In this document: positions 35,036 through 60,315 of the stretch, piece by piece
Numbering within the stretch: position 1 is the first letter of the stretch
How the letters are laid out: every line of letters begins with the position of its first letter
Assembly: GCA_958295755.1 (NCBI GenBank)
Contig: OY282367.1
Location: 1,678,022-1,742,021 of the forward strand
Direction: 5' to 3'
DNA from: an uncultured Acidimicrobiales bacterium
GTDB taxonomy: Bacteria; Actinomycetota; Acidimicrobiia; Acidimicrobiales; Hopanoidiivorantaceae
Length of the DNA: 64,000 nucleotides
The notes under the pieces: generated by a model
What the model saw: the letters and a program-made list of their open reading frames with translations, nothing else
The model's database searches: none
What the model was told of the DNA's origin: nothing
Program-made: the position numbers and the translations under genes

Positions 35036-35398
35036 ATGAACGAAACCTCTGCCACCCCCACAGACGACCACCGCCGCCAAGCCTGGCGAGAGATAATGGG
35101 CAACGATCCGCCCGAAGATCTGAGTGATCTCTACCTGCAATTCACCTCCGATCTTTTTGTGAATGTCTGGACTCGCCCCGGTCTATCTCGCCGAGACCGT
35201 CGCCTGATAACACTGACCGCAGTGGCCACCAGAGGCTCCCCCGAAGCCCTCCCCCATCACATCAAAGCCGCTTTGCAACTAGGCGATCTCACACGAGAGG
35301 AGCTCTCAGAGTGGGTAGTCCATCTAGCTCACTACGCCGGCTGGCCAGCCTCCGCCGAAGCCTACATAGCCCTCCAAGTAGCCCAAGCCGCTTCCTAG
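35036..35398 (+). CDS. Carboxymuconolactone decarboxylase (CMD) family protein
   Basis: The 120-residue protein matches the CMD/PcaC fold: LYLQFTSDLFVNVWTRPGLSRRDRRLITLTAVATRGSPEALPHHIKAALQLGDLTREELSEWVVHLAHYAGWPAS. Like PcaC-type members it lacks the CxxC of AhpD-like peroxidases and has HHIKAAL at the equivalent place, so a hydrolase, decarboxylase or ligand-binding role fits better than redox. Length is typical. It stands just upstream of a DNA methyltransferase with 27 nt between them. The substrate is unknown. Confidence 0.88.
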   Translation: MNETSATPTDDHRRQAWREIMGNDPPEDLSDLYLQFTSDLFVNVWTRPGLSRRDRRLITLTAVATRGSPEALPHHIKAALQLGDLTREELSEWVVHLAHYAGWPASAEAYIALQVAQAAS

Positions 35399-46690: not shown

Positions 46691-48409
46691 TCAAAGGCGG
46701 GGGCCGGCGGTGCGGAGGTCGCCTTGGCGGCGGGTTATGCCTTTGTTGTCTAGGAGGGCTAGGAGGGGGAGGATGTATTTTCTAGTAGTGGAGAGGCTTT
46801 CTCTAAATTCGGCAACTGTGAAGCCTTCGGGTTGGGCTTTTAGGATTTTTGCTACTGCTTCTGTGGCTTGAATGACTGCTTCGTCTGCGAAGTAGATGCC
46901 GCTTTCTTCTACGATCAAGCCTCGGTGGATCATTGCTCGCAGTTCTGCTCGGCCTACGCCTTCGGGGGGTGGTGGAGTGAATGGGGCTGCTCGTAAGGCT
47001 GCGATGTAGGGATGGCTTTCTATGACGTCTTCTTCGTCTGCGACTCGCACTTGGCCTCCCTCTGTGGTTAGGTCGTCCATAGTCTCAAGGGCGGCTCGCT
47101 CCTGTTCATCAAGGGCTGCTATGTCGTAGCGGCCTGCTTTGCTAACACGCTTGCGAATGTTGCTTTGGGTAGCTACCAGCACTTCGGATGAGACAACCCA
47201 GTCCCCGACAGATTCCACCCCCTCTTGGGAATCCGAAAGCTCAGAAGCCAGCAGTTCCAACTCGCTTGCTCGCACCCAGCCTCGCTCTCTCACTACTCGT
47301 TCCACACTGCGATCTGGGCGGGCACGAGAGGCGGGCAACACAGGATCAACATCTAACAATTCTCCCCCGCCGACTGTTTCTGACCTCCCGAACTCTCGCA
47401 ACACGAAGCGGTCGCCAGGTTGGAAAGGCAAAGCATGAGACAGATGCAGACGTACTGCGCCTGTTTCGCCCGGTGCCAAAGCTTTAGCACCCAGCACACG
47501 TAGCTTGACGGGGAACTCTCCCGAACCGAAATATGCCACATAAGCTCCTCGCCGAGAGACATCGTGCCCTAGAGTTTCCAGAACAGTTAGCGAAGCGTCG
47601 CACTGATTCGTCATCCACCATTGGCCTTCCCGCACCAGCACATCGCCCCGTTGGGCTTCATCTGCGCCAACTCGCCCCAAGTTGAGTGCCACTCTGCTGC
47701 CCGGCCGGGCGGCTTCGCAGGCTTCATCATGGGTTTCTATGCCCCGAACTCGCACATCTCGCCGCGCAGGGCACAACATGAGCTTGTCATCTATCGCAAT
47801 TTGCCCGCCGGTGAGCGTTCCCGTGATTACCGTTCCAGAACCTCGGATGGTAAATGACCTGTCAATCCAAAGGCGTGGACGGGCGGCATCTAAAGCTACT
47901 GGCGTGACGGCGAGTAGTCGGTCTAAGGCTTCGCGCATCTCCTCTAGCCCCTCACCGCTGAGAGAATCCACCTCCACTACTTCGGCGTCTTCTAAGAATG
48001 TGCCGGCAATATGGTCTTCCACATCTAGTTTGGCTAGCTCTCGCAAATCGTTGTCGGTAACTCCGACTTTCGTGAGTGCCACCAAGCCGTGTTGCAAACC
48101 GAGCAACTCTAAAATGCGTAGATGCTCTTCTGACTGAGGCTTCCATCCCTCGGTGGCAGCCACCACGAACACACAGGCATCCACCGCCCCCACCCCTGCG
48201 AGCATGTTTTTCAAGAAGCGCACATGGCCGGGCACATCCACGAAAGAGACCGACCGGCCTGACGGCAGCGTCGCGGTAGCAAAACCTAGGTCTATCGTGA
48301 GGCCGCGCTCTTTTTCTTCGGCAAAACGGTCAGGGTCGGTACCTGTGAGGGCTTGGACGAGAGTGGATTTGCCGTGATCTACATGTCCAGCTGTGGATAT
48401 GACAATCAT
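46691..48409 (-). CDS. selB: Selenocysteine-specific elongation factor SelB
   Basis: SelB brings selenocysteyl-tRNA to UGA codons marked by a SECIS hairpin. The 572-residue protein begins IVISTAGHVDHGKSTLVQALTGTDPDRFAEEKERGLTIDLGFA (G1 and SelB-type switch I), then FVDVPGHVRFLKNMLAGV and ALTKVGV, EF-Tu-like domains 2 and 3, and a C-terminal winged-helix array (residues 370-572) that binds SECIS RNA. Length is in the usual range. Its start overlaps selA by 4 nt (ATGA). Its presence means the cell decodes at least one UGA as selenocysteine, and a candidate lies 4 kb upstream in the same direction. Confidence 0.96.
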   Translation of the reverse strand: MIVISTAGHVDHGKSTLVQALTGTDPDRFAEEKERGLTIDLGFATATLPSGRSVSFVDVPGHVRFLKNMLAGVGAVDACVFVVAATEGWKPQSEEHLRILELLGLQHGLVALTKVGVTDNDLRELAKLDVEDHIAGTFLEDAEVVEVDSLSGEGLEEMREALDRLLAVTPVALDAARPRLWIDRSFTIRGSGTVITGTLTGGQIAIDDKLMLCPARRDVRVRGIETHDEACEAARPGSRVALNLGRVGADEAQRGDVLVREGQWWMTNQCDASLTVLETLGHDVSRRGAYVAYFGSGEFPVKLRVLGAKALAPGETGAVRLHLSHALPFQPGDRFVLREFGRSETVGGGELLDVDPVLPASRARPDRSVERVVRERGWVRASELELLASELSDSQEGVESVGDWVVSSEVLVATQSNIRKRVSKAGRYDIAALDEQERAALETMDDLTTEGGQVRVADEEDVIESHPYIAALRAAPFTPPPPEGVGRAELRAMIHRGLIVEESGIYFADEAVIQATEAVAKILKAQPEGFTVAEFRESLSTTRKYILPLLALLDNKGITRRQGDLRTAGPRL

Positions 48410-49746
48410 TTCAATCCCAGCACTGCGTTGCTGACATCTTCATCTTGATATGGAAAGATCGTTCGGAAATCTAAAAAAGTTTGATCTTGCGACACTCTGG
48501 CTACGAGCCGATGACTGCGTAACTCTTCGCCTCGGTCACCCTCCAAGACGATGCCCGCCGATGGGATCTCCACACCCGGAAGTGTGCCACCGCCAGGCAC
48601 TGAAAACATCTCGGCAACCTGAACTTCAGAGACCTGAACTCCAGCAACTTGATCTACAACAACCTGATCTAAAGCAACACTAGCGATAGCTTCGGCTCTA
48701 GCTCGAAGTTCAGAGACTGGCTTGGTGGCCATCGCCCAAAACGGGATGCTCTGGCCGTCGCGCCGAAGATATGCCAAAGCCACTTCTTGAAGCGCGCCCA
48801 ACACATGTCCGCCAGGTCGCAAAGCTCTAGCTAGTGGGTGACGGGCGCAACGTTCTATGAGGTCGGAGCGACCGCAAATGATCCCGGCTTGCGGGCCGCC
48901 TAGGAGTTTGTCGCCAGAGAACACCACCAAGTCGGCACCGGCTTCCAAACTTTGCCTTGCCGCCGGCTCGCCCGCTAACCACTGGGGCGGTTCATCAGCA
49001 AGCCACGGGCAACGAGCGTCCAGTAGCCCAGAGCCGATGTCGTAGACCACTGGCACTCCTAGCGTGGACATCTCGCTCACCTCCACCGATTCGGTGAAAC
49101 CAGAAATGGTGTAGTTGGATTGGTGCACTTTCAAGCAGAGAGCAATGTCAGCAGAAGGACGCGTCAAAGCTGCCTGGTAGTCGCTGAGGCGAGTGCGGTT
49201 GGTGGTGCCGACTTCTACAAGTTTGGCACCCGACTGCGACATCACTTCTGGCACCCTGAAGCCTCCACCAATTTCCACTAGCTCGCCACGCCCTACTGCT
49301 ACACCTCGCCCTGATGCTAAAGCTGCGAGCACCAACAGCATTGCGGCTGCACCGTTATTTACAACCATGGCCCTTTCGGTTTCGCAGAGCCGGGCGAAAA
49401 GACGTCCTACGGTTTGCTGACGCGAACCACGCTCGCCTTGGCTAAGGTCAAATTCTAAGTTGGAATAGCCCGTTGGGTGGCTTATGGGCCAAGGGGCGCG
49501 CCCTAAATTGGTGTGAAGCAACACACCTGTTGCATTGATAACAGGCTGAAGTAAAGATGCTTCCTGATGAGTGGCTATAGCTGATGCGACAGCAACAAAA
49601 TCGGTATGGTCATCGCTGCCACTGCCGGTAGCACTGCTGGCGATGGCTTCTCGTGCGGCATCTACCAACAATGGCTGAGGCAAAGGTGAATTTTCGCTCA
49701 GCGATCTGGCAAGCGCATCCACCGACGGTGGACGCGGTGAGTTCAA
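48406..49746 (-). CDS. selA: L-seryl-tRNA(Sec) selenium transferase
   Basis: SelA converts seryl-tRNA(Sec) into selenocysteyl-tRNA(Sec) using selenophosphate. The 446 residues match the PLP fold-type I SelA family: INATGVLLHTNLGRAPWP, ERAMVVNNGAAAMLLVLAALASGRGVAVGRGELVEIGGGFRVPEVM, VYDIGSGLL and the PLP-lysine segment VVFSGDKLLGGPQAGIICG. Together with SelB it shows a bacterial Sec pathway; selC (tRNA-Sec) and selD are not in this window. About 135 nt separate it from the hydrolase gene upstream, without a visible terminator. Confidence 0.96.
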   Translation of the reverse strand: MNSPRPPSVDALARSLSENSPLPQPLLVDAAREAIASSATGSGSDDHTDFVAVASAIATHQEASLLQPVINATGVLLHTNLGRAPWPISHPTGYSNLEFDLSQGERGSRQQTVGRLFARLCETERAMVVNNGAAAMLLVLAALASGRGVAVGRGELVEIGGGFRVPEVMSQSGAKLVEVGTTNRTRLSDYQAALTRPSADIALCLKVHQSNYTISGFTESVEVSEMSTLGVPVVYDIGSGLLDARCPWLADEPPQWLAGEPAARQSLEAGADLVVFSGDKLLGGPQAGIICGRSDLIERCARHPLARALRPGGHVLGALQEVALAYLRRDGQSIPFWAMATKPVSELRARAEAIASVALDQVVVDQVAGVQVSEVQVAEMFSVPGGGTLPGVEIPSAGIVLEGDRGEELRSHRLVARVSQDQTFLDFRTIFPYQDEDVSNAVLGLK

Positions 49747-49880: not shown

Positions 49881-50849
49881 CTAGTTGCGACTCAAAAACT
49901 CCTCAATCAAAGCAGCCAACTCCACCGGCTTATCACCTTGAATGCTGTGACCTGCGCCAGGCACGATCACCACTTCGGCTTCGGGGCGGCGGCACAAAAG
50001 TTCTTCTATGTCTTCGTCACCCACCACGCCAGACTCGCTGCCTTTGCAGAGCAACAAAGGCACGGTGATTCCATCAATGGCACCCCACGCCGAACCAAAG
50101 AACTCTAAATCAGACCCATCGCCTGCCGATCCTTCTCCTGCTGAAGCGTTGCTTGTATCATCGCTTGCTGTTCCTGCATCGTCATCTCTAACTCTCGTGG
50201 GATCCCACCGCCATGTCCAGCGGCCGTCGGGAAGTTCTTTGGCATTGTTTAGAATGCCTCGCCGTAGCGATGCCTCGCTTCGAGTGGGATTGTGTTCTAT
50301 CGTGCGAGCCAAGATGTCGTCAAATGACTCAAAATACACCGGCCCAGAGATGAACTCTAAAATCGGTTCAGCTTTGACTCGGTTCACCCCGGGTGTGATA
50401 TCCACCAGCATCAGACTACGAACCAGCTGCGGATTTATGTCTGCCAGCATCAAGGCAGTCAATCCGCCGAGCGACATACCAGCCACCGCTTTAGCATCTG
50501 GAGCAAGCTCAGCCACGATGGAACGAACATCTTCAGCTAGCTCAGATGGCGAATAGGCATGATCTTCGCGCCAGTCGGAGTGGCCGTGGCCGGGCAAGTC
50601 CACCGCTAGCAGAGGTCGTTTCAATGCCATAGCTACGGTGTCCCAGGTGTGGGCGTTTTGAGCACCGCCGTGGAAAAGCACTAACTCTGGCGGGGCGTCG
50701 CCCCACATAAGCGCGCTCAACTTGCGACCTTCGCCGTCGGGTAGCTCGTGTGAGACTCGTCTCGGCATAAATTCGCTGTCCCATTTCACGCCCGCTTCGT
50801 CAGCAGCTTCGGCGAGCATTGAGAATTCTTGGATGTCTTTTGACTGCAT
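49881..50849 (-). CDS. Alpha/beta hydrolase
   Basis: I take the ATG at 50849, which overlaps the permease stop (TGATG), giving 322 residues. The fold is clear: oxyanion segment LVLFHGGAQNAHTWDTVA, VDLPGHGHSDW, nucleophile elbow GMSLGG with Ser near residue 125, and the C-terminal catalytic His in VPGAGHSIQGDKP. A Ser/Ala/Gly/Asp insert (about residues 218-245) interrupts the lid region. The substrate is unknown. Coupled translation with the ABC genes suggests it belongs to this operon. Confidence 0.88.
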   Translation of the reverse strand: MQSKDIQEFSMLAEAADEAGVKWDSEFMPRRVSHELPDGEGRKLSALMWGDAPPELVLFHGGAQNAHTWDTVAMALKRPLLAVDLPGHGHSDWREDHAYSPSELAEDVRSIVAELAPDAKAVAGMSLGGLTALMLADINPQLVRSLMLVDITPGVNRVKAEPILEFISGPVYFESFDDILARTIEHNPTRSEASLRRGILNNAKELPDGRWTWRWDPTRVRDDDAGTASDDTSNASAGEGSAGDGSDLEFFGSAWGAIDGITVPLLLCKGSESGVVGDEDIEELLCRRPEAEVVIVPGAGHSIQGDKPVELAALIEEFLSRN

Positions 50850-51613
50850 CATTCGCTCTCGGCTTTCGGTACCCATTGAAAATATTTCAGCACAAAAATC
50901 AAACCTACTACGCCCCAAGCGGCCACTACTAATAGATCGGCTAATCGTCCGTCTTGCAGGGAGGAGTCGAATCCCGACCTGAAACCTTCGGCGAAGGAGC
51001 GCAGCGGGAAGATGCCACCCAGTATCTCCATCCATCTAGGGGGGTCGTCCATCGGAATAAAGATGTTGGAAATGAAAGCAAGCGGCAAGATGGTGGCATT
51101 GGTGATAGCTGAGGCAGCTTGGCCAGTTTTAGCGAGGATAGATACGGCCATTCCCAGCACGGCGAAAGCCAGCACACCTACCGCAAAGAACAGTGCCATC
51201 CAACCGATCTGGCTGTAGTTGATTGAGATATCGGCGATGAAAGTCCCTACTACGAACAAAATCGTAGCTCCTAAGAAGGCAACCCACACGGCCGATGCCA
51301 CAGTGCCTGTGAGGAATTGCCAAGGGGCTGCTGGGGTGCCTCGCACTCGTTTCAGGGTGCCATCTTCGCGCATGAAAGCAAGCGTCACACCCAAGTTGGT
51401 GTAGGTGGCTGTGGCGGCAGTGAAGCTTGCCAGAGCAGGCACATAAAACTCAGAGATGTTGATCTGCCCGCCCGTGCCGTAGGGGTCGGAGCCGAAAATG
51501 CTGACGAATATGATCATCATCACCAGCGGTAGCGCGAGCGTAAAGAACGCCGCCACAGGCGTGCGCCAGAAAATGTGATTATGAAATCGGAACCAGATAT
51601 AGGCGAGTTTCAC
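50849..51613 (-). CDS. ABC-2 type transporter permease
   Basis: The 254-residue membrane protein has about six transmembrane helices (for example AFFTLALPLVMMIIFVSIFG, VASAVWVAFLGATILFVVGTF, GWMALFFAVGVLAFAVLGMAVSILA and ATILPLAFISNIFIPMDDPPRW) and ends with LLVVAAWGVVGLIFVLKYFQW, the ABC-2 exporter layout. It starts with GTG overlapping the ATPase stop by 4 nt. It probably exports a drug, lipid or polysaccharide with the adjacent ATPase. Confidence 0.9.
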   Translation of the reverse strand: MKLAYIWFRFHNHIFWRTPVAAFFTLALPLVMMIIFVSIFGSDPYGTGGQINISEFYVPALASFTAATATYTNLGVTLAFMREDGTLKRVRGTPAAPWQFLTGTVASAVWVAFLGATILFVVGTFIADISINYSQIGWMALFFAVGVLAFAVLGMAVSILAKTGQAASAITNATILPLAFISNIFIPMDDPPRWMEILGGIFPLRSFAEGFRSGFDSSLQDGRLADLLVVAAWGVVGLIFVLKYFQWVPKAESE

Positions 51614-52704
51614 GAAGATGCCTCTGTTATCTCAGATCTCTCTGCTATCTCAGTTGCCCCGCCGACCAAAGATCTCTCTGCTACCTCAGTTGTCCCTGCG
51701 ACCAAAGATTTCTCTGCTGCCTCAGTTGTCTCCGCTGCCTCAATCTTGGATTCCACGAGGCTCAGGTATCTGTCTTCTAAGGTAGAGCGCGACACCGTAA
51801 GACCTTCAAGCTCTACTCCACTCTCTTGTGCCAACCCAGTAAGGCGATGGAGTAGCTTCGTGGGTGCGTCTGTTTCTAATACGACTTTGCGGACAGACAT
51901 TTCGCCTGCTGTTACATCCTCGCTGTCTGGCAAACTCTCTGCCTTACTGTCTGTCTGCCTGCCTATCTGCTCGCCTGTCTGCTCCTCTAACCATGCCACC
52001 GACCAGCCTCGCGGCATCGTGAATTCAACTTTCGTAGTGTCTTTGCCCGACATCAGATCGTCGGGCTTGCCCAAATGCGCCACTTCGCCCGCCACTAAAA
52101 CTGCCATCCTGTCAGCCAAGTAGCTGACTTCTTCCATGTAGTGCGAAGTGAGAAGGATGGTCGTGCCGCTAGCGCGCAGATCGCTCAACATTTGCCAGGC
52201 TTCTCGACGGGCTTCGGGGGCGAAACCTGTGGTCGGCTCATCAAGAAATAGCAGTTCAGGGTCGCCTACTAGCCCCAAAGCGAGATCTAGCTTGCGCTTC
52301 TGTCCGCCGGAAAGCCGCGAAATCCGTCTGTGGGCAGCGTCTGTCAGCCTAACCAGATCTAGCAGTTCGTCGGCGGAGCGGGCGTGGGAATAGCTAGCCC
52401 CGATGATTTCAAGCAGTTCTTTCGGGGTAAAAGGAGGATCAGCAATGCCAGACTGCGAAACAATGCCGATGCGGTCCTTCATTTTCAGGTTGTGATCCGC
52501 CGGATTTTGCCCCAGTACTTTCACCGAACCTGAAGTAGCTTTGCGGTGCCCTTCTAATATCTCCACGCAGGTGGATTTACCCGCACCGTTCGGGCCCAGC
52601 AGAGCAAAAATCTCGCCTTGTTCAAGCGAGAAGCTGACGCCTTTTAAGGCTTGAAGTTCGCCGTATCTTTTTTGAAGCTGCTCAACAGAGACAACAGATG
52701 ACAC
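51610..52704 (-). CDS. ABC transporter ATP-binding protein
   Basis: The 364-residue ATPase has Walker A LLGPNGAGKST, Q-loop IGIVSQ, signature RLSGGQKRKLDLALGL, Walker B LLFLDEPTTGF and switch His TSHYMEE, the drug-exporter (DrrA/CcmA-like) type. It starts with GTG 4 nt after the stop of the selenoprotein gene, so it is probably in the same transcript. After the usual C-terminal domain it ends with about 40 extra residues of repeated TTEVAERSLVGG-like phrases, encoded by a degenerate 36-bp tandem repeat near 51625-51740. Confidence 0.92.
   Translation of the reverse strand: MSSVVSVEQLQKRYGELQALKGVSFSLEQGEIFALLGPNGAGKSTCVEILEGHRKATSGSVKVLGQNPADHNLKMKDRIGIVSQSGIADPPFTPKELLEIIGASYSHARSADELLDLVRLTDAAHRRISRLSGGQKRKLDLALGLVGDPELLFLDEPTTGFAPEARREAWQMLSDLRASGTTILLTSHYMEEVSYLADRMAVLVAGEVAHLGKPDDLMSGKDTTKVEFTMPRGWSVAWLEEQTGEQIGRQTDSKAESLPDSEDVTAGEMSVRKVVLETDAPTKLLHRLTGLAQESGVELEGLTVSRSTLEDRYLSLVESKIEAAETTEAAEKSLVAGTTEVAERSLVGGATEIAERSEITEASS
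51625..51745. repeat. Degenerate 36-bp tandem repeat at the 3' end of the ABC ATPase gene
   Basis: About three to four copies of a unit containing TCTCTGCTACCTCAGTTGTC and ACCAAAGAT lie inside the coding region and encode alternating AERSLV/TTEVAE phrases. The unit keeps the frame. Confidence 0.65.
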
Positions 52705-52708
52705 TCAT

Positions 52709-53206
52709 TCAGACTACAGAGCCTTGCGGTGAAGGAGTAGGCATCTCTGTGGTAGGCATTTCTGGCGGTGGCCCCCACGCTATCGCCGATTTAGACATCC
52801 CGCAAACCATAGAAATGGTGAGGGTGAGTTCCTCTAGCTCGGAAGGCGAAAACAGCCTGTGGAGTTCTTCTCGGAGGTCATCAGTCATGGATTTGCCACC
52901 CACAATCACATCTGCGTAACCGATGGTGGCCTTGTGGCGGTCGCTTAGCTCAGATGTCTCATAGTCGGCATCTATCTGGGCGACATGTTCTTCAGTAAGA
53001 CCCTGCTGTTTCGCACCTGCGAAACGAAGGTTCTTTCAAAGGTTGCAGTCCACAAGCCGAGCATTGCGGATGCGAGCTACCTCCTTCGTGGGCTGATCCA
53101 GTAGGCCACGCGACCACATCTCGCCATAAAAGCGATTGAAAGTCGCTAGCATCTCAGGCTGATGCTCAAAGAAAATGCCGCTGTCGTGCGGAGGTTTAAT
53201 TCTCAT
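52709..53206 (-). CDS. Selenocysteine-containing CMD/AhpD-like protein (CxxU, TGA at 53036-53038)
   Basis: Reading from the ATG at 53206, the frame is MRIKPPHDSG... and reaches TGA as codon 57 in the context RLVDC-NL-(TGA)-KNLRFAGAK. It continues open for another 108 codons to TGA at 52711-52709, 165 residues in all. The post-TGA part (LTEEHVAQI, ELSDRHKATIGYADVIVG, LFSPSELEELTLTISMVCGMSKS) is a continuous CMD-fold sequence. CMD/AhpD-like redox proteins have CxxC here, so TGA replaces the second cysteine: CxxU. An in-frame TGA lies 2 codons before the ATG, so the start is bounded. A SECIS-like hairpin follows (53008-53035) and selA-selB lie downstream on the same strand. It is likely a thiol/selenol peroxidase or oxidoreductase; the substrate is unknown. 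Automatic annotation would split it or call it a pseudogene. Confidence 0.88.
53008..53035 (-). promoter_or_regulatory. SECIS element of the CMD selenoprotein
   Basis: Ten nucleotides after the TGA (AAGAACCTTC) a perfect 7-bp stem forms, GTTTCGC with GCGAAAC (53025-53019 and 53014-53008), closed by the tetraloop AGGT. Weaker pairing (ACCTT with AGGGT) can extend the base. Bacterial SECIS hairpins start about 11 nt after UGA and carry a GGU in the apical loop, as in E. coli fdhF, so position, stem and loop all agree. Confidence 0.8.
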
Positions 53207-53297: not shown

Positions 53298-53849
53298 CTA
53301 GTCTCGCAAACCAAGCTGTGCCAGCGCAACACGGCTACGGATGAGACTTTCAAATACAGCCAAAGCAAAAGTGAGATTAGTCAGCTCAGGCTCAGAGAAC
53401 CAGCGATTCATCTCAACGCAGTCTTCATCGGTGATGGTGTGTGGGTCTATCGCATACTTCTCGCAAAAATCCAAAGCAGCCCGGTCGGCATCGCTGAACA
53501 GCGGCGAAGTCGGCCATTCAGACAATGCAGCCAGCTTCGCTTCAAGCTGTGCTCCATGACTATCAGCCCCACTGCCATTTGCCCTCTTATCATCAGCACC
53601 ATCAGCATCTGTCCCCCTCCCATCTGCACCGCCAGCCCCATTACCATTTGCCCCCTTGCCGCCAGCCCCACTATCATTTGCCTGTGGAGTCCGCAAAGCT
53701 GCATCAACTTCAGAGCCAAGCAACATCGCCATACGAACCCTGCAAAGCTCCAATGTGGCTGAGTCCATAGCCCCTTCCCAAACTTGTTCCACAAACTCCC
53801 CCAATACCGAATCCAACTTCGGCTCAAGCGTCTCAAACGGTTTGGTCAT
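53298..53849 (-). CDS. CMD-like protein without cysteines at the active site, with low-complexity insert
   Basis: The 183-residue protein has a CMD-type N-terminal part (LEPKLDSVLGEFVEQVWEGAMDSATLELCRVRMAMLLGSEVDAALRTPQ) and C-terminal part (LFSDADRAALDFCEKYAIDPHTITDEDCVEMNRWFSEPELTNLTFALAVFESLIRSRVAL). At the place of CxxC it has GSEVDAA, so the redox motif is absent. Between the halves is a 45-residue Gly/Ala/Asn/Asp repeat (residues 56-100). It lies 92 nt upstream of the selenoprotein gene on the same strand and shares its domain layout, so the two may form a heteromer with one redox-active and one inactive subunit; that is inference. Confidence 0.8.
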   Translation of the reverse strand: MTKPFETLEPKLDSVLGEFVEQVWEGAMDSATLELCRVRMAMLLGSEVDAALRTPQANDSGAGGKGANGNGAGGADGRGTDADGADDKRANGSGADSHGAQLEAKLAALSEWPTSPLFSDADRAALDFCEKYAIDPHTITDEDCVEMNRWFSEPELTNLTFALAVFESLIRSRVALAQLGLRD

Positions 53850-56977: not shown

Positions 56978-57892
56978 CTAATACATCAGTTTGGATTCGG
57001 GGGGTTCCATACCTTGTTTGCTGAGGCTAAAGTTTTCTAGCTGACCTCCGTCTTGGAGGGCTTTTTCGGCTTTGGAGGTTTTGTTGTTTTGAATGAAGCG
57101 AAACTGACGGCTTTGGAATAGCAGGTCGCCGTCAGGTGTCCAGATTGTGCTGTCTTCTTCCACATAGCCGTTCAGAGATGCCCCGGTGGTCAGTGCCACC
57201 AGCACTGGTGTGCCTATCGGTAAGTGCTTCGGATTTACACGGAAGTAGGCGGTGAACTCCATGGTGCCCGCCATCATCGGGGCGTCAAGTTTGCGATATG
57301 CCACGGGTGTGAAGCCGTCGGCTACAGTAGCCAAGAATTTCTCATCTATGCGTTTGCCGTTGGCTGGTCGCGCCCAGCCACCTGAATGGTAAAGCTTCTG
57401 GCCTTCTGGAATGCCAGCAAACACATCCCACATATCCAAATTGTCACGGAACGGAAATGGCAAATCGCCCGATTTAGGTTGGTTGGGATCGAACGGAGCA
57501 ACCTTTGGCATTTTGAGATCGGTAAAGTCAATCGCCTCGCGCTCTCTGGCAAAAGTCGCAGCTGCGAAACCGCAAAGCTTGCCTTGGCAGAACATTCTGG
57601 CTGTTACAACTGTTACTGACATACCCGAGCGTTCCACATTCGTCTCCACCCGCATAAGCCCTTCTGGGAAAGGTCGCAGGAAGTGCACAGTTAAGGTGCG
57701 GGGCGGGCGGGTTTCACCTTTAATCTCTTGTGCACTGGCAATCTCTTGTGCACAGGCTTGAAGTGCTAGCGCATTTACATAACCACCGAACAGACCAGGG
57801 AAACCCAACCAACTACCATCGTTGTGCCTTTCATAAACACCTGGGGCAACCTTCTCAAACGAAGTGTCTGAATCAAGTGCTATGTCTGTCAT
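56978..57892 (-). CDS. TesB-like acyl-CoA thioesterase family protein
   Basis: I take the ATG at 57892, which overlaps the upstream hydrolase stop by 4 nt (ATGA), giving 304 residues. The layout is a double hot-dog: GSWLGFPGLFGGYVNALALQACAQE...RTLTVHFLRPFPEGLMRVETNVERSGMSVTVVTARMFCQGKLCGFA in the first half and AGTMEFTAYFRVNPKHLPIGTPVLVALTTG...SRQFRF in the second. The GGY(V)NALAL and LTVHFLRPF phrases are typical of thioesterase family PF13622. It probably hydrolyses medium or branched acyl-CoAs. Co-translation with two esterase-like hydrolases suggests a shared catabolic or detoxifying role. Confidence 0.86.
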   Translation of the reverse strand: MTDIALDSDTSFEKVAPGVYERHNDGSWLGFPGLFGGYVNALALQACAQEIASAQEIKGETRPPRTLTVHFLRPFPEGLMRVETNVERSGMSVTVVTARMFCQGKLCGFAAATFAREREAIDFTDLKMPKVAPFDPNQPKSGDLPFPFRDNLDMWDVFAGIPEGQKLYHSGGWARPANGKRIDEKFLATVADGFTPVAYRKLDAPMMAGTMEFTAYFRVNPKHLPIGTPVLVALTTGASLNGYVEEDSTIWTPDGDLLFQSRQFRFIQNNKTSKAEKALQDGGQLENFSLSKQGMEPPESKLMY

Positions 57893-59106
57893 TTGTTTCT
57901 CATGCATTCGTAAACAGAAAAAAGCAATCTGGCTGCTCGTCTGTCATCAAGCGGCGATCCCATGGCACACATGGCATAGCCAAACCCGAAGTTTGCTTCT
58001 GGGTCACAAAACCCCAAAGAGCCTCCGATGCCTCCATGATGGAAAGCTCTGGGGTTTGGACCGTAGCCGGCGGGGTTGTTGAGCATGAATCCCATACCCC
58101 AAGTAGTCTCGCCGGCTACCGCTCCGATGACAATATCGCGGGCTGTGGGTTGAGCTTCACGCATCCGCTCTGTAGCTGCCGGGCTGAATAACCTCACGTC
58201 GCCATAGGTGCCCCCAGAGGCAATAGTGCCATAGATAGTTGCGATACCTCTGGCACTGGCATGCCCGTTGGAAGACGGGAAGACACCGCTTCGCCACTGC
58301 GAGGAGTTTACAATGCTGAGGCTAATTTCAGGAACAGAGAAAGCTTTGATCATCCTTTCGGTTAACTCAAAGCCAGAGTTGTTGCTGAATTCGGTAGTCG
58401 AAGACATATCTTGTGCTGAAACACCGTCTGTGTTTGTTTCGTTGTCTGTATCTGGGGCATCCCACTGGGAGCCCGGAATTTCACACAAATCAGCAATCCT
58501 GTGTTCTAACTCTGAAGGCACCCCAACGAAAATATCTGCGTTGAGCGGCTCAGCCACTTCTTCGTGTAAGAACCGACTAATAGGGCGGCCGTCCACACAC
58601 TGCACCAACTTGCCAACTAGATGACCAAAAGTGCGGGCGTGATATCCCGAAGCTGTGTTTGGTTCCCAAAACGGCTCAGTCGCAGCCAACATTGAGCACA
58701 ACTTTTCCCAGTTAAACATATCTTCAGGCGGTATCGGCTCATCCCAAGCCATCAAACCTGCCCGATGGCTCAAGAGCTGTCGAACGGTTATCTTTGCCTT
58801 ACCCGCCTGTGCGAACTCGGGCCAGTAATCAGCTACAGGCTTGTCAAGTTCCAGCTGCCCTCTGTCAATCAAAATATGGGCACACAGCGAGACGAACCCT
58901 TTGGTGGTCGACCAGACATTTACTATCGTGTCGGCTTGCCATGGGCGAGTTCCGGCCCAGCCGCCCCACAAATCTACTAAATACTCCCCGTCTTGCACAA
59001 CAGCAACCGAAGCTCCTACATCGCCTCCTTTAGAAAAGTTATCGGCAAAAACTTGCCGAACCTTCTCAAACCCCTCCACCACACTCCCTGAAATCTCTTC
59101 GCTCAT
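57889..59106 (-). CDS. Serine hydrolase of the beta-lactamase fold (EstB-like), copy 1
   Basis: The 405-residue cytoplasmic protein has the class C beta-lactamase/esterase motifs: SxxK as STTK in IVNVWSTTKGFVSL (about residue 68), a Tyr-containing second motif in SGYHARTFGHLVGKLV, and HHGGIGGSLGF near residue 360 in place of KTG. Enzymes of this group (EstB, carboxylesterase VIII) hydrolyse esters and are not antibiotic resistance determinants by default; no signal peptide is present. It is a tandem copy of the following gene, 6 nt apart, with the order copy 2 then copy 1 in transcription. Confidence 0.88.
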   Translation of the reverse strand: MSEEISGSVVEGFEKVRQVFADNFSKGGDVGASVAVVQDGEYLVDLWGGWAGTRPWQADTIVNVWSTTKGFVSLCAHILIDRGQLELDKPVADYWPEFAQAGKAKITVRQLLSHRAGLMAWDEPIPPEDMFNWEKLCSMLAATEPFWEPNTASGYHARTFGHLVGKLVQCVDGRPISRFLHEEVAEPLNADIFVGVPSELEHRIADLCEIPGSQWDAPDTDNETNTDGVSAQDMSSTTEFSNNSGFELTERMIKAFSVPEISLSIVNSSQWRSGVFPSSNGHASARGIATIYGTIASGGTYGDVRLFSPAATERMREAQPTARDIVIGAVAGETTWGMGFMLNNPAGYGPNPRAFHHGGIGGSLGFCDPEANFGFGYAMCAMGSPLDDRRAARLLFSVYECMRNK

Positions 59107-59112
59107 GATTTT

Positions 59113-60315
59113 TTACAGGCTTTTGTATACGGCTTTCAGTAGCACCACCGCACGTTTGTCTTTGACGAGGGTTGAAACATTCATTGCGTTCATTGCGTAG
59201 CCGAAGGCGATGCCAGTTTCTGGATCGCAAAACCCTAGCGAGCCGCCATAGCCACCGTGATGGAGGGCGCGAGGGTTAGGACCGTACCACTTCTGCTTGT
59301 TCACCATATAGCCCATGCCCCAAGTCATCTCCTCGCCATCGGCACTGATAACCAAATCTCGGCTCGTGGGCTGTTCTTCTCGCATTCTTTCGATGACTTC
59401 GGGGGTAAACATTTGGATTTTACCGAAGGTGCCACCCGCTGCAATAGTGCCATAGGTAGCCGCGATGCCTCTGGCATTGCCGTGCCCGTTAGCAGACGGG
59501 AAAACACCTCTTCTCCAAGCGGTGGAATTGGCTACTTTGGGGCCGACGAATGGGTTCCCCAAGGCTCGGAGCATAAGCTGGCTAACTTCAGATGCTGAAC
59601 CTTCGCCTGCATCTGCCTCTGTCTCTTCAGGCTCGGATTTCACTTGCGAAGGATTTTGAGGAGGAGGTGCGTCTAAAGTCGTGCACAAATCGGCTACACG
59701 ATGATCATCTTCAGGCTGAACGCCTATGAACATGTCGGCCTTGAGCGGATCTGTTATTTCTTCTCGTATGAACTCCTCTATAGGCCGCCCATCAATTCTT
59801 CGCACCAGCTCACCCACCAGATGAGCGAAAGTCAAAGCATGGTAGCCCGATTGGGTATCTGGTTCCCAGAAAGGTTCTTGTGCAGCTAGCATCTCACAGA
59901 GCTTTGCCCAGTCATACATCAAATCCTCAGTCACTGGCTCGGCCCAGCCAGCCAACCCCGCCCGATGGCTCATTAACTGGCGCACAGTGATCTCGCCCTT
60001 ACCTGCTTGGGCGAACTCGGGCCAGTAATCAGCTACGGGCTTGTCAAGTTCCAGTTGACCCCTGTCAATCAACATGTGTGCACCCAGCGAAACAAACCCC
60101 TTGGTGGTCGACCAGACATTCACGATGGTATCTGCTTCCCACGGGCGAGTCCGCTCTTCATCAGCCCAACCACCCCACAGATCCACCAGATACTGCCCGT
60201 TGCGAACGACCGCCACCGAAGCCCCCACCTCATTTCGCTTCTCGAAGTTCTGAGCAAAAGCCTCTCGGACAGCTTCAAACCCAGGGCGGATATTTCCAGA
60301 TATGACTGCTTCCAT
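59113..60315 (-). CDS. Serine hydrolase of the beta-lactamase fold (EstB-like), copy 2
   Basis: The 400-residue paralogue of the preceding protein aligns over its whole length (VEADTIVNVWSTTKGFVSLGAHMLIDRGQLELDKPVADYWPEFAQAGKG is nearly identical), with STTK, SGYHALTFAHLVGELV and HHGGYGGSLGF. The main differences are in the middle, where it carries a Glu/Ala/Ser-rich insert (EPEETEADAGEGSASEVS). It is first in a three-gene unit with copy 1 and the thioesterase. Duplication and divergence suggest different ester substrates. Confidence 0.88.
   Translation of the reverse strand: MEAVISGNIRPGFEAVREAFAQNFEKRNEVGASVAVVRNGQYLVDLWGGWADEERTRPWEADTIVNVWSTTKGFVSLGAHMLIDRGQLELDKPVADYWPEFAQAGKGEITVRQLMSHRAGLAGWAEPVTEDLMYDWAKLCEMLAAQEPFWEPDTQSGYHALTFAHLVGELVRRIDGRPIEEFIREEITDPLKADMFIGVQPEDDHRVADLCTTLDAPPPQNPSQVKSEPEETEADAGEGSASEVSQLMLRALGNPFVGPKVANSTAWRRGVFPSANGHGNARGIAATYGTIAAGGTFGKIQMFTPEVIERMREEQPTSRDLVISADGEEMTWGMGYMVNKQKWYGPNPRALHHGGYGGSLGFCDPETGIAFGYAMNAMNVSTLVKDKRAVVLLKAVYKSL

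Follow-up and report, generated by a model that had tools for sequence, protein, structure and literature searches.

The locus

The window, by which we mean the whole stretch of 64,000 nucleotides of an uncultured Acidimicrobiales bacterium that was analyzed here, contains on its minus strand a gene with an in-frame TGA that is preceded by a related gene and followed by transporter, hydrolase and selenocysteine (Sec) machinery genes. The order sister gene, selenoprotein gene, ABC ATPase, permease, hydrolase, selA, selB is common to the window and to G001, which among the 59 genomes searched is the one further member of the genus and has extra genes inserted. The features, in the order of reading, are the following.

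53298..53849, minus strand: sister CMD protein of 183 residues with Ser and Asp at the Cys and Sec columns, proposed non-catalytic partner (profile match, AlphaFold model, same PDB relatives)
52709..53206, minus strand: proposed catalytic subunit, a 165-residue CMD/AhpD-family predicted selenoprotein with Sec57 (reading frame, Pfam, homologues, AlphaFold model, fold matches)
53081..53083, minus strand: codon of Glu42, 12 residues ahead of Cys54, corresponding in position to the Glu of the AhpD proton relay (Glu in 119 of the 120 homologues listed; spacing equal in PA0269; relay described in PMC3141380)
53045..53047, minus strand: codon of Cys54, predicted resolving partner of Sec57 (Cys in 120 of the 120 homologues listed)
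53036..53038, minus strand: in-frame TGA, predicted Sec57, second position of CxxU (Cys in 119 of the 120 homologues listed; TGA kept in G001)
53008..53025, minus strand: SECIS-like hairpin GUUUCGC-AGGU-GCGAAAC, 17 nt from UGA to loop (rule and comparison)
51610..52704, minus strand: ABC transporter ATPase, starting 4 nt past the selenoprotein stop (sequence match; same order in G001)
50849..51613, minus strand: ABC transporter permease (role from position and sequence; same order in G001)
49881..51035, minus strand: alpha/beta hydrolase (Abhydrolase_6, E 1.1e-22; same order in G001)
48406..49746, minus strand: selA (TIGR00474, 399.5 bits, cut-off 267.9)
46691..48409, minus strand: selB (TIGR00475, 280.9 bits, cut-off 242.25)

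Provided that the TGA at 53038-53036 specifies an amino acid, the frame that opens with ATG at 53206 and closes at 52709 encodes 165 residues and contains C-N-L-U, in the context DCNL-TGA-KNLRF. Re-reading of this frame reproduced the coordinates, TGA position and context given in the original prediction, as well as the 108 further codons after the TGA and the statement that only the C-terminal 66 codons show up as a long frame, the first start-type codon past the TGA being a GTG at residue 100. selA and selB do run in the same direction, as had been claimed, but the distance of 4 kb assigned to both needs correction: selA begins about 3.0 kb (49746) and selB about 4.3 kb (48409) downstream. 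The gene of the predicted selenoprotein also ends in a TGA, its natural stop (52711-52709), so that a single mRNA would use UGA in two senses.

The Cys-x-x-TGA pattern occurs in the window about as often as expected by chance (93 versus 85.4), and the case for this particular TGA therefore rests on comparison. The 108-codon open run has a probability of about 0.006 by simple arithmetic with uniform codons; as judged from the sequences, the above-chance signal is the homology across the TGA.

Homologues, fold and active-site residues

With C in place of U, the protein is recognized by the Pfam CMD model (PF02627) at 29.8 bits (cut-off 23). A protein search found 151 homologues; the alignment counts cover the 120 listed, with the other 31 left out. 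Among these 120, the U column is occupied by Cys in all but one sequence, which has Tyr, in line with the earlier proposal that the TGA stands for the second Cys of the CxxC motif of AhpD-like proteins. The AhpD relay consists of Glu, Cys, His/Tyr, Cys and His (PMC3141380), and Glu42 lies at the distance from the first Cys that is expected of the relay Glu. At the place of the relay His, four residues past the second Cys, all of the 120 homologues listed have Arg, as does the window protein (Arg61). This departure from the AhpD peroxidase pattern makes peroxidase activity uncertain.

The AlphaFold model of the catalytic subunit, again with C for U, has a mean pLDDT of 88.3, and in a Foldseek comparison this predicted model matches 7xw1 with probability 1.00 and TM scores of 0.64/0.78, that is, it has the AhpD fold. 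The closest solved fold by both sequence and structure is the Pseudomonas aeruginosa AhpD protein PA0269 (2ijc, 2o4d, 7xw1), which has the same spacing of Glu, 12 residues and Cys-x-x-Cys; the window protein differs from it in having a predicted Sec for the second Cys, Arg61 for the relay His and an adjoining sister gene. Among the NCBIfam models, the best match is NF053654, YciW-related (seleno)protein, which is also matched at E 1e-3 or better by 21 of the 21 members of A1; at 44 bits against a cut-off of 310, however, the window protein falls far short of the threshold of that family. NF041047 (GSU3128) gave 20.5 bits against a cut-off of 110, and the peroxidase-related model TIGR01926 gave no match to the window protein at E up to 1, with 10 of the 21 members of A1 matching it at 1e-3. 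A second CMD-family gene in the window (35036-35398, 120 residues) is devoid of the CxxC motif.

The TGA in related genomes

The G001 protein is 62% identical to that of the window and has TGA at the same codon. Downstream of the TGA, the comparison of these two sequences yields pN of 0.273 and pS of 0.722, indicative of purifying selection. A scan of species genomes recovered 37 loci, of which 27 have TGA at the site (the G001 locus, L075, among them), nine have Cys, and one, L084, has the site deleted; the latter was left out of all site counts. A class-wide scan of 296 genomes gave 63 matches at 1e-15, among which 17 are clear orthologues (E no greater than 4.1e-44, the next being 4.9e-28), 13 with TGA and four with Cys; several members of this set share sequences with the 37-locus set, and the two are not independent. 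Plasmids, searched as well, produced only two weak matches.

In L084 (5952-6252; an Acidimicrobiales genome with SelB), a deletion has joined the two genes, so that the beginning of the sister is followed by the end of the catalytic gene; most of the former and the Sec half of the latter are gone. Three loci, L092, L093 and L099, at first sight contain two TGAs, but proteins with two Sec residues were rejected, given that one TGA is the CxxU site and the other the gene end. Two loci (L074, 291-644; L085, 1769-2137) encode a further CMD protein of a different sort that also has TGA at the CxxU position; its gene precedes the sister gene by about 2.6 to 2.9 kb.

The TGA could, in principle, be an ordinary stop or a sequencing error, with the downstream part being a pseudogene remnant. 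The use of TGA as the terminal codon of the same gene and the loss of the site by deletion in one of the 37 loci would fit such an account. We nevertheless consider it extremely improbable, in view of the purifying selection past the TGA, the 27 loci out of 37, from other assemblies, that share the TGA at this column, and the hairpin and full Sec machinery described below. The outcomes named beforehand as speaking against the original prediction were likewise not observed: homologues align across the TGA and have Cys at the column, and the relatives keep either TGA or Cys, with no case of a stop followed by decay among the 37 loci.

A SECIS-like hairpin downstream of the TGA

The bacterial SECIS rule specifies a loop of 3-9 nt, a stem of 4-16 bp, a G in the first two loop positions, a spacing of 16-37 nt and an energy of at most -7.5 kcal/mol (PMC13188914). 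The window hairpin conforms to each of these, with the loop AGGU (G in second position), a 7-bp stem, 17 nt spacing and -9.6 kcal/mol for the hairpin piece. An Rfam search of 11 kb round the gene yielded nothing at E of 1 or better; the case for a SECIS element depends on the rule and on comparison. A promoter and terminator scan was uninformative, its terminator-like site on the plus strand (53007-53026) being the same palindrome as the hairpin.

Taken alone, the window hairpin is marginal against synonymous shuffles (fraction 0.045 by energy, 0.055 by pairs). Across 28 TGA loci, by comparison, a mean of 6.64 of the 7 pairs is formed versus 5.31 in synonymous shuffles, with energies of -11.5 versus -6.6 kcal/mol; the corresponding values for the nine Cys loci are 3.67 versus 3.68 pairs and -8.5 versus -7.2 kcal/mol. 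When each locus is tested separately at 0.05, 14 of the 28 TGA loci pass by energy and three by pairs, and none of the Cys loci passes by either. After removal of duplicate 36-base stretches, 94.8% of the stem cells are paired in 22 distinct TGA sequences (31.8-53.9% with the partners slid) versus 52.9% in 10 distinct Cys sequences, and none of 500 shuffles of the TGA sequences reaches either this paired share or the covariation score. Changes affecting both sides of a pair are scarce, with 2 pairs and 3 cells, numbers reached in 11 and 5 of 500 shuffles; in L104, a two-sided change from G-C to A-U is accompanied by amino-acid changes on both sides. The pair types in the 22 sequences are no better than shuffled, with 234 of 500 shuffles reaching the observed value.

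Codon usage bears on the same region. In codons 58-69, 11 of the 11 residues conserved between the window and G001 use the same codon, compared with 32 of 85 elsewhere (Fisher p 6.5e-5, for a region picked once the hairpin had been seen). Among the distinct sequences with Arg at position 66, the codon is AGG in six of eight TGA forms and in none of eight Cys forms, AGG making up 3.7% of Arg codons in three such loci; in the remaining TGA forms, L081 and L082, Arg66 is encoded by CGA and the hairpin is shifted.

Selenocysteine machinery and other predicted selenoproteins

The genome from which the window comes (one contig of 2.29 Mb, listed as 89.5% complete) has, in addition to selA and selB, a selD gene scoring over the cut-off (C1:1334522) and a tRNA-Sec (C1:1430348-1430440; 60.6 bits, cut-off 47), and hence all four components, SelA, SelB, SelD and tRNA-Sec, that are looked for in selenoprotein-making bacteria. 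Four more genes of this genome contain an in-frame TGA, namely SelD itself (GAGU, C1:1334522), two TPGU peroxiredoxins (C1:1216598 and C1:1671652) and the formate dehydrogenase alpha chain FdhA (NRTUH, C1:861753), the last with a family score of 657 bits, just below the cut-off of 666.25. We take the places of TGA in these four genes to be known Sec sites. Peroxiredoxin TxxU, SelD and FdhA are tabulated as selenoprotein families in the cited lists (PMC13188914, PMC2398784).

SelB scores over the cut-off in 26 of the 27 TGA genomes versus three of the nine Cys genomes (Fisher p 2.8e-4, a value that ignores kinship), such that Cys forms also occur in three genomes with SelB. The tRNA-Sec was detected in 21 of the 27 TGA genomes versus five of the nine Cys genomes; in the other six TGA genomes it was not found among the 85 candidates scored, out of several hundred first-look candidates per genome. 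SelB or tRNA-Sec is present in 27 of 27 TGA genomes versus five of nine Cys genomes.

An alternative to Sec insertion, namely that UGA is read through as another amino acid, by a near-cognate tRNA or under a changed code, is hardly credible given the presence of tRNA-Sec, SelA, SelB and SelD, the further genes with TGA at Sec-type sites, and Cys as the aligned residue; on the same grounds, a changed code was rejected. Thus, as far as sequence comparison goes, the catalytic gene very likely encodes a selenoprotein, and the original reading of it as a CMD/AhpD-like selenoprotein gains support from the homologues, the TGA-keeping relatives and the Sec machinery. That reading, however, overlooked the sister gene upstream.

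The sister gene and the two-half fusions

The sister gene ends 91 nt upstream of the catalytic gene. Its product in the window has no Pfam CMD match of its own, although 12 of 22 aligned family members do, and comparison of the sister-family profile with the catalytic family gives a match of 99.5% probability (E 2.3e-22). The AlphaFold model of the sister protein (mean pLDDT 84.3) has the same fold, and the PA0269 structures are the best PDB relatives of both subunits. An insert of about 40 residues, in which Gly, Asp and Asn abound, is present in the window copy and absent from the G001 copy; no tandem repeat was found in the DNA.

Each of the 36 intact loci has a sister. In 34 of them it lies no farther than about 115 nt ahead of the aligned start; in L078 it is fused, and in L075 of G001 it is 2.6 kb away. 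The search covered 800 upstream bases, or 3,300 for L075, where the sister was already known; L053 is cut by the contig end, and the frames were cut at every TGA, so that a Sec-bearing sister could not appear. The search seeds came in part from three of the loci, L049, L083 and L085, which also match profiles built without their own rows (123.6, 174.8 and 116.0 bits, respectively). G049 and G006, whose TGA forms are more distant, likewise have a sister gene upstream. Cys is absent from the Sec column in all of the 37 sister proteins aligned; 15 have Glu or Asp there, and seven of the 37 keep the first Cys.

Fusions of the two proteins occur in both orders. L078 is a single chain of 352 residues with the sister half at the N-terminus, and its use as a query retrieved 95 proteins; in all of the 82 that have both sites aligned (13 were dropped for gaps at either site), CxxC is found in the second half and the pair is missing from the first, with 62 of the 82 keeping the first Cys of the sister half. 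In the reversed fusions L041 and L042 (genomes G058 and G028), a Sec-type active half with TGA comes first and a sister-type half second; against the sister profile these second halves reach 84.7 and 60.2 bits, compared with 19.7 and 9.8 bits against the catalytic profile and 6.1 bits for the best of 400 shuffles. Thus, the arrangement of two-half AhpD proteins, with a homologous silent half linked to an active one, is represented by an adjoining gene in the window and by one chain in L078, L041 and L042.

Parallels exist in the literature. Fused AhpD proteins of Corynebacterium ureicelerivorans and Comamonas aquatica, described as sestrin-like, and the sestrins themselves combine one active and one silent AhpD-like half, as here, and in the two bacterial fusions the silent half comes first, matching the gene order of the window (PMC11429811). 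Marks of sestrins given by the same source are a DDYDY hinge motif and a leucine site (PMC11429811). The window differs in that the two parts are separate genes and the active part carries a predicted Sec.

The sister could instead be merely a co-transcribed neighbor that does not bind the selenoprotein. AhpD-like proteins of known structure form homo-oligomers (PMC3141380), and the two genes are 2.6 kb apart in G001, both of which are compatible with this possibility. Arguing against it are the fusions in both orders and the association in 36 of the 36 intact loci, while the window's other neighbors were not found outside the genus in flanks of about 6 kb, save for one weak ABC ATPase match (L082); accordingly, we consider a non-binding sister rather unlikely.

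Gene neighborhoods and the question of the substrate

The neighborhoods of relatives point to no common pathway: in five of them, eight neighboring proteins were inspected (nickel insertion, metallo-beta-lactamase fold, aminotransferase, short-chain dehydrogenase, DUF1295 and others), and none emerged. Further along the window (57889-60315), two tandem look-alikes of beta-lactamase-type serine hydrolases, recognized by eye, adjoin a 4HBT-fold thioesterase, and the syntenic part of G001 has one such hydrolase with a 4HBT-fold thioesterase.

The selenoprotein might also catalyze a non-peroxide reaction, for example, reductive removal of halogen as by the AhpD-fold debrominase Bmp8. Bmp8 is among the fold neighbors of both subunits, the relay His is replaced by Arg, and the name of a same-genus species, which derives from the sponge Cymbastela, was counted in favor of such a role. 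Sponges make brominated compounds (PMC12203066). Yet Bmp8 ranks below PA0269 and other AhpD-like folds, and the titles of several related records (Pasture, palsa, Offshore) suggest soil, peat or open water. We consider a reaction other than peroxide reduction rather unlikely.

Discussion

We propose that the gene at 53206-52709 on the minus strand encodes a selenoprotein with a Sec57/Cys54 redox center that probably acts in a complex with the upstream sister, which lacks the pair. The most likely mechanism is that of an AhpD-type selenol/thiol redox enzyme, in which the catalytic subunit would be complexed with its silent sister, the complex and the substrate both being suggested by comparison. 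Under this scheme, SelB would bring Sec-tRNA to the hairpin; Sec57, at the second position of CxxU, would attack a hydroperoxide or disulfide substrate; and Cys54 would resolve Sec57 as a selenenylsulfide, with Glu42 relaying protons and Arg61 lying where AhpD has His. The sister, its pair lost, may contribute to a mixed oligomer as a subunit with a structural or regulatory function, a role proposed because the related AhpD-like structures are oligomeric (dimers, trimers and hexamers; PMC3141380) and because the two halves occur fused.

Selenoproteins of the CxxU kind are well precedented, as the original prediction stated: reports of AhpD-like and CMD-like representatives go back to the Sargasso Sea survey (PMC1088965, PMC2398784, PMC9312934, PMC13188914). 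The AhpD-like (COG2128/YciW) and CMD-like (PF02627) selenoproteins of the Sargasso Sea and GOS sets share with the present protein the CMD family, the CxxU motif, Cys homologues and the bacterial SECIS rule. Compared by their descriptions in the cited sections, they come with no named pair-less sister gene, and one Prx-like/AhpD-like neighbor pair is named. A sister gene paired with a selenoprotein was not encountered in the open-licence literature searched.

A stronger version, put forward tentatively and as the less probable form of the proposal, is that of an obligate heteromeric selenoenzyme, in which the Sec-containing AhpD subunit is gated by a dead sister whose empty active site binds a ligand or a protein. 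If true, bacteria would have, in split form and with selenium, a counterpart of the active-plus-silent design of sestrins, and the gene pairs and the fusions in either order would be variants of it that occur in nature.

A gene caller that treats UGA as a stop would split genes of this kind, and Sec members of the subfamily have therefore likely been missed in annotation. The codon choice at Arg66 illustrates clearly how an RNA element shapes codon usage within a coding region. Furthermore, the Sec, Cys, split and fused versions in related bacteria form a natural series that bears on the roles of selenium and of the silent subunit.
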